Source of the DNA: Vulcanimicrobiota bacterium
Lineage (GTDB): Bacteria; Vulcanimicrobiota; JAJTBE01
Length of the DNA: 53,062 nucleotides
Assembly (NCBI GenBank): GCA_021107945.1
Contig: JAIORV010000196.1
Coordinates: 1 to 53,062, forward strand
Direction of reading: 5' to 3'
Shown here: piece by piece, positions 41,038 to 42,468 of the stretch
How the letters are laid out: each line of letters opens with the position of its first letter
How positions within the stretch are numbered: the stretch's first letter is position 1
The notes under the pieces: model-generated
The model's database searches: none
What the model was told of the DNA's origin: nothing
The model's input: the letters and a program-made list of their open reading frames with translations, nothing else
Made by a program: the position numbers and the translations under genes

Positions 41038-42468
41038 TTGAGCGGGGAAATTCTGGCAGACAGATACATTATCGGCAAAATAGTGGGCGAGGGCTCTTAC
41101 AGTATTGTTTTTAAGGGATGGGATAAGGAAAAAAAGCGAATTGTCGCTGTAAAAGAATTGAAGAGATCGGGCATGACTTCGGGAGAAATAAAGGAGTCCC
41201 GGGATCTCTTCTTTCGGGAGATTAATATTCTCAAGAGTCTCAATCATCCTTCCTTTCCGAAAGTATATGATTTCCTGTGTTACGATGAAAGATATTACCT
41301 TGTGATGGAATGGGTGAACGGTGAAGACCTCTTGAGCCTTCTTAAAAGGAAATTCTGGATCCCGGAGGACATCGCAATCGGATATATGAAGCAGATCCTG
41401 AAAGCCCTGATTTACCTGCAGGACGAGAAAAGAAATATCATATACAAGGATCTGAAACCATCCAATATCATCCTGACAGGCACGGGGCAATTAAAGATAA
41501 TAGATTTCGGAGCGGCACGGTTTTACTCACCCGGCAAGAAAAAAGACACCCACGCCCTTGGCACGCCGGGGTATGCGTCACCGGAAGCATACACGGGAAG
41601 GCAGACCGATTTTTCCGCCGATATGTATTCCCTGGGGGCGACATTTTACCACCTTGTTACAGGAATGGAGCCTGTCTGTTTTAAGTTCAAATTTCCATCG
41701 CCTAAAAAGTTTAACGGGAATCTGAGCGACGGTTTCTCAAAATTCCTCATCGAATGCCTGAAGCTCGGGGATAAAAGAATACCCGACGCAAAAAGCGCAA
41801 GCGACAGGCTTTCCGGAATAATGGGAATTGATTACTTGCCTGGCGACAAAAAAGCAGATAAAAACAAGAATCTTGAAAGATTATTTGTGTTTTCCTGTGG
41901 AATTATTGCCTTCTTCGTTCTGACATCGGTTATATTCTCTTCAGGATTTTTTTATAACTTACTCAATAACTTATCTCCCTTCCTTCAAGAGTTCGCAGCC
42001 TTAATCCTGGGTATGTTTTTTTCCGTTTGTGTTTTATATGGAGCAATAGGAATACTCATTAAAAGATTACCAAAAGGGTTTGACTGGAGTTCTTTGCGTA
42101 TAATATTTATATGTTTTTGCGTTTGCAGTTTTATTGTCCCATACTTTAGTCGTGCAAGAGCCCCATATCCCGGAAGCACTTCTATTCAATGTCAGCAAAA
42201 TTGTAAGAATATTGCACACGCTCTTGATATATATGCACGGGAGAACAACGGACATTATCCTGAGAACCTCGGACAATTGACACCAAAATATATCAGGGCG
42301 ATACCCACATGTACAACCGCAAAGAAGGAAACATACACATCATCATACCATACAAACCGGGAACGCACTTCATTCACATTTTACTGCAATGGGGAGAATC
42401 ACAGGAATGTCGGAGTCGAGGGAAATTTTCCTAAATTTGACTCGTATAAAGGGATTTTATGCAGATAA
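41038..42468 (+). CDS. Membrane Ser/Thr kinase with three membrane helices and C-terminal pseudopilin-like domain
   Basis: 476 residues from TTG 41038, which has GGGAGG 9 bases ahead; the ATG at 41029 touches that site and is less likely. Numbering below is from the ATG. The kinase domain (about 13-265) has [12 protein letters not shown], Lys42, YKD at 139-141 and an intact DFG at 159-161. Helices lie at about 287-307, 321-345 and 356-373. The last runs into [13 protein letters not shown], as a pseudopilin N-helix would. The head follows: [48 protein letters not shown]. The YP-LTPxYI-IPTC order is shared with the kinase at 27491. Likely an envelope sensor tied to pilus-like subunits; the role is inferred. 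Confidence 0.87.
   Translation: [476 protein letters not shown]

Follow-up and report, generated by a model that had tools for sequence, protein, structure and literature searches.

Why should a Ser/Thr kinase end in a domain that looks like part of a pilus? This question is raised by a gene of a Vulcanimicrobiota bacterium, located in a 53,062-nucleotide stretch of contig JAIORV010000196.1 (the window, meaning the whole stretch analysed). The first-pass annotation, made from the DNA letters, took it for the second of two kinase-pseudopilin chimeras in the window (copy 2). The other (copy 1) lies on the opposite strand. I asked whether the C-terminal head is really related to pseudopilins, whether the two copies belong to a family, and whether the head is likely to act in a pilus or as something else.

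Architecture of the two kinases

The copy 2 gene consists of a kinase domain, three predicted membrane helices and a head of about 97 residues. Its features are as follows.

41029..42468, + strand: whole gene of copy 2, 479 aa (kinase, three TM helices, pseudopilin head)
41041..41823, + strand: Ser/Thr kinase domain (residues ~5-265; PF00069, E 6.5e-51, and motif table)
41881..41937, + strand: TM helix 1 (residues ~285-303; hydropathy and AF2 helix)
42004..42060, + strand: TM helix 2 (residues ~326-344; hydropathy and AF2 helix)
42091..42147, + strand: TM helix 3 (residues ~355-373; AF2 helix 353-377), derived from the prepilin N-terminal helix
42130-42168, + strand: run-in of TM helix 3 toward the head
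42160..42174, + strand: APYPG (residues 378-382), an insertion relative to prepilins by alignment and a helix break in the AF2 model
42175..42465, + strand: pseudopilin (GspG-like) head (residues 383-479)
42190..42192, + strand: Cys388 of the head
42250, + strand: GHYP in the head
42268, + strand: LGQLTPKYI in the head
42301, + strand: IPTC in the head
42310..42312, + strand: Cys428 (within IPTC)
42379, + strand: FYCNGENH in the head
42385..42402, + strand: Cys453 to His458 (CNGENH within FYCNGENH), conserved

The ORF opens with an ATG at 41029. An in-frame TTG at 41038 has a better-spaced GGAGG upstream than this ATG, and the start at 41038 given in the first-pass annotation may well be correct; the start position is to be read as ±9 nucleotides. 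Judged by its sequence, copy 2 is a Hanks-type Ser/Thr kinase, having the Gly loop (GEGSYSIV), the VAIK Lys (K42), the alpha-C Glu (E64), the catalytic Asp, DFG and the APE motif (as SPE). The kinase motifs had been called intact, which holds for all the catalytic motifs but HRD, which is replaced by YKD (Arg to Lys).

Copy 1 has the same order of domains.

27491..28774, - strand: whole gene of copy 1, 427 aa (kinase, one TM helix, head)
27851..27907, - strand: TM helix (residues ~290-308)
27494..27793, - strand: head (residues 328-427), with a high-confidence AF2 model

The kinase of copy 1 has DFT in place of DFG. Its head carries GKYP, LKDLTPRYI, IPTC and IYCRGNFH, which correspond to GHYP, LGQLTPKYI, IPTC and FYCNGENH in copy 2, and the two heads are 32-33% identical. 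Thus, the two proteins share a head, as had been proposed, and they differ in the number of helices before it (three in copy 2 and one in copy 1). Copies 1 and 2 are sisters neither in the kinase tree nor in the head tree, where branch support is modest to moderate; the view of them as independent copies agrees with this placement.

On which side of the membrane does the head lie? Helices between kinase and head were counted in 16 head-bearing kinases at a hydropathy threshold of 1.6. The count is odd in 15 of the 16, and the third helix of the sole exception (L077/L038) is weak. Since the kinase is cytoplasmic, an odd count places the head outside the cytoplasm. The predicted topology thus supports an extracytoplasmic head in copy 2, and the cytoplasmic placement that would have spoken against the earlier reading was not obtained.

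Kinship of the head with pseudopilins

A prepilin of the same genome (contig C125), with a full class III signal, shares 49% of its residues with copy 2 in a 111-aa alignment that starts at PYFSRARA, and is 32% identical to copy 1. To compare the groups as profiles, an alignment made only of kinase C-termini (13 sequences) was matched with one of 17 prepilins by hhalign, giving 100% with an E-value of 2.3e-47 over 130 columns that include the N-terminal helix. The kinase-only profile also matched PulG/GspG in the PDB (E 0.0015), and the NCBIfam GspG model TIGR01710 matched seven of the 13 kinase C-termini (best 3e-7). Of 25 heads taken without the helix, the majority from other parts of the phylum, 19 matched Pfam T2SSG (best 2.3e-4). 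The copy 2 head by itself matched no Pfam or NCBIfam model, so its connection with GspG runs via its relatives. By these comparisons, the homology of the last helix plus head of copy 2 to the pseudopilins and prepilins of its own genome holds; the profile dissimilarity that would have counted against it was not obtained.

An AF2 model of copy 2 residues 281-479 was built with 50 relatives. The head was modelled at a pLDDT of 94-98. In a Foldseek search of the PDB, the top four matches were Vibrio cholerae EpsG, with probabilities of 0.85-0.97, modest E-values of 0.09-0.28 (the best probability, 0.97, at E 0.09) and TM-scores by target of 0.52-0.55. TcpA and CofA ranked next, and XcpG was eighth. 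The modelled head of copy 2 thus appears to resemble GspG, within the limits of such E-values, and the globular part is pilin-like by profile comparison as well as by predicted fold. The confident AF2 model of copy 1 found no pilin in Foldseek and returned insignificant matches only. The claim about the fold is therefore drawn from copy 2 and from the sequences.

It had also been claimed that the last helix of copy 2 reads into the head just as in a pilin. The homology to the prepilin helix stands. The continuity of the helix from membrane to head, as in pilins, does not: in the AF2 model, TM helix 3 extends to residue 377, is broken at 378-382 (APYPG), and is followed by a head helix at 383-405. 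The copy 1 model is likewise split, into helices at 2-34 and 38-61 of its own numbering.

The head has a feature that GspG-type major pseudopilins and type IV pilins lack, namely the conservation of three Cys and one His located about five residues past the last Cys. These four positions (Cys388, Cys428, Cys453 and His458 in copy 2) are jointly present in 131 of 134 heads and jointly absent from the other three. The pattern would fit a candidate metal site; a disulfide with the remaining Cys left free would fit it as well. The metal site is a lead only, because the three heads without Cys and His may stem from a single loss event.

A mobile head in the genome and the phylum

Is the head confined to these kinases? 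A search of the same genome with the copy 2 head gave 39 matches at E<=10, itself included, of which 33 were below 1e-4. The carriers are prepilins, ankyrin proteins (contig C70), zinc-ribbon proteins, other membrane proteins, lipoprotein-like and secreted proteins that have two heads in tandem, and five kinases. The presence of the head on lipoprotein-like, ankyrin, zinc-ribbon and tandem proteins indicates an autonomous module, and its presence on lipoprotein-like and secreted proteins without a pilin helix indicates that it can work apart from filaments. Head matches are present in 77 of 98 genomes of the phylum. A phage origin was also considered, and no significant PHROG match was found.

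Several arrangements of head genes were seen along the way. On contig C70 (12925-17412; L007, L009, L013 and L016), five head genes are clustered, four of them with C-terminal ankyrin repeats. On C125 (556-3036; L167), the gene of a 386-aa membrane protein has a prepilin gene on either side, and these two are nearly identical. Other genomes of the phylum encode proteins that carry two or three heads each and are ~780-910 aa long (L088, L091, L103, L107, L123 and L124).

The genome has 71 Pkinase matches. The five head-bearing kinases are the two in the window and one each on C87, C21 and C98. In two of the five (L019 and L021), catalytic motifs are replaced by NHG, and by LRI and DLS, so that these proteins are likely pseudokinases by their sequence. 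As they look catalytically dead, the head may serve functions that do not need phosphorylation. Another kinase gene on C87 (21660-22568, L095), 62% identical to copy 2, lies at the contig end with an internal stop and no head seen.

Homologues with the whole kinase-TM-head arrangement were searched in 149 genomes of the phylum, with ten candidates per genome scored, so that the counts are lower bounds. Genome G017 has at least ten full-length homologues, one with five helices, and G003 and G002 have at least one head-bearing kinase each; G017 and G003, both with full-length homologues, belong to other families. Together with the 39 matches at home, this bears out the earlier view that the kinases are a family rather than a chance fusion. 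On the kinase tree, the head label changes about ten times, five of them forced by well-supported branches; the labels depend on incomplete sampling, and one row labelled as having no head (L078, 358 aa) is a cut ORF of a head-bearing kinase. The head has likely been captured repeatedly among the kinases, or lost, or both, as far as the trees tell. It seems that repeated capture in this phylum (Ca. Eremiobacterota/UBP9) drew on a large pool of head modules.

Receptor, pilus component or anchor

Taken as a whole, copy 2 is probably a membrane receptor-type Ser/Thr kinase whose predicted sensor is a captured GspG-like pseudopilin head. From homology and predicted topology, a cytoplasmic N-terminal Hanks kinase would be followed by three membrane helices and then, outside the cytoplasm, by the head. 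The last of these helices would be the end of a former prepilin N-terminal helix that has lost its cleavage signal, leaving the protein anchored. By analogy with PASTA kinases, the head is most likely the sensor or partner-binding part, and a ligand or a pilin-type partner bound outside the cytoplasm may alter the dimerisation or activity of the kinase. A building block of the pilus has apparently been reused as a sensor, because the combination of a kinase and a pilus-type head recurs in related bacteria.

PASTA-type kinases (PknB/PrkC/Stk1) have the same layout of an N-terminal cytoplasmic Hanks kinase, a membrane helix and a C-terminal extracytoplasmic sensor. They differ in having PASTA repeats where the present proteins have a pseudopilin head, often after three membrane helices. 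The PASTA kinase model NF033483 aligns with copy 2 over the kinase domain only, at 162 bits against a cut-off of 450. PASTA and other named sensor domains were rejected, as none of them matches in Pfam or NCBIfam.

Neither receptor-type Ser/Thr kinases nor pseudopilins are new in themselves. For a pseudopilin head joined to such a kinase, the open-access papers searched gave no precedent. If the receptor reading is right, a pilin head has here given up its part in filaments and serves receptor kinases as their extracytoplasmic domain, and prepilins, membrane-anchored heads, tandem heads and kinase fusions all coexist in one genome. The head would then be a candidate sensor domain, without a Pfam or NCBIfam name, for a phylum that is kinase-rich and almost uncultured.

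Could the kinase instead use its pilin-derived helix and head to dock on the base of a type IV pilus or pseudopilus, or to become part of that base, and report the assembly state? This is unlikely, although several observations fit it. There is the homology between the last helix and that of prepilins. PilB, PilT and PilC are encoded at 1214-5440 of the window, with PilC at 1214-2440, and the genome also has one prepilin peptidase, two secretins and a PilM-like locus. In two kinases of G017, L079 and L082, TLxE is retained where prepilins have it (RMTLFETVLGLFMLAFLAAILVP and TTLLEVIIIFIILVILGSALVP), with Glu5 at prepilin spacing and no insertion in the helix, while the rest of the signal is not kept; their TLxE makes the descent from prepilins plain. 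PilS of Pseudomonas, a histidine kinase tied to the state of pilin, would be the known likeness; it binds pilin as a separate protein and has no pilin-type domain of its own. Against docking, the class III signal peptide is missing from copy 2, which has neither the cleavage Gly(-1) nor Glu5 at the aligned positions, and its helix is interrupted. Therefore, processing and polymerisation are not expected. In addition, an N-terminal cytoplasmic kinase would, from what is known of pilus biology, keep the helix from being pulled out of the membrane, and the head is common on proteins without a pilin helix. The proposal that the copy 2 helix packs into a pilus-like bundle is thus not supported. In the G017 paralogues that keep TLxE, packing or docking at the pilus base may occur. 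Less probable again is that the helix and head join or touch the pilus or pseudopilus base and turn its state directly into Ser/Thr phosphorylation. If true, L079 and L082 would be the clearest cases. The kinases described here make it testable whether components of the pilus signal straight into Ser/Thr phosphorylation.

More doubtful still is a passive head, that is, an anchor or a wall-binding or protein-protein module without a sensory role, with the output of the kinase set elsewhere. The head is indeed found on many unrelated proteins, including the two predicted pseudokinases, and its Cys/His positions look structural; however, its pairing with transmembrane kinases recurs across several genomes, and in every case the head is at the extracytoplasmic end. 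Nothing was found in favour of an origin by frameshift, chance fusion or misassembly, and the conserved full-length homologues refute it. The arrangement is seen at three loci of this genome besides the two in the window, in at least ten genes of G017 and in further ones of G003 and G002, mostly in uninterrupted frames.

Near each kinase copy lies a gene for a secreted-looking protein, at 25569-26423 and at 43078-43989, both on the - strand. A link of the kinases with these two paralogues was considered and set aside; they match no Pfam family. Their gene family has six copies in the genome, and its arrangement differs between the two kinase copies.
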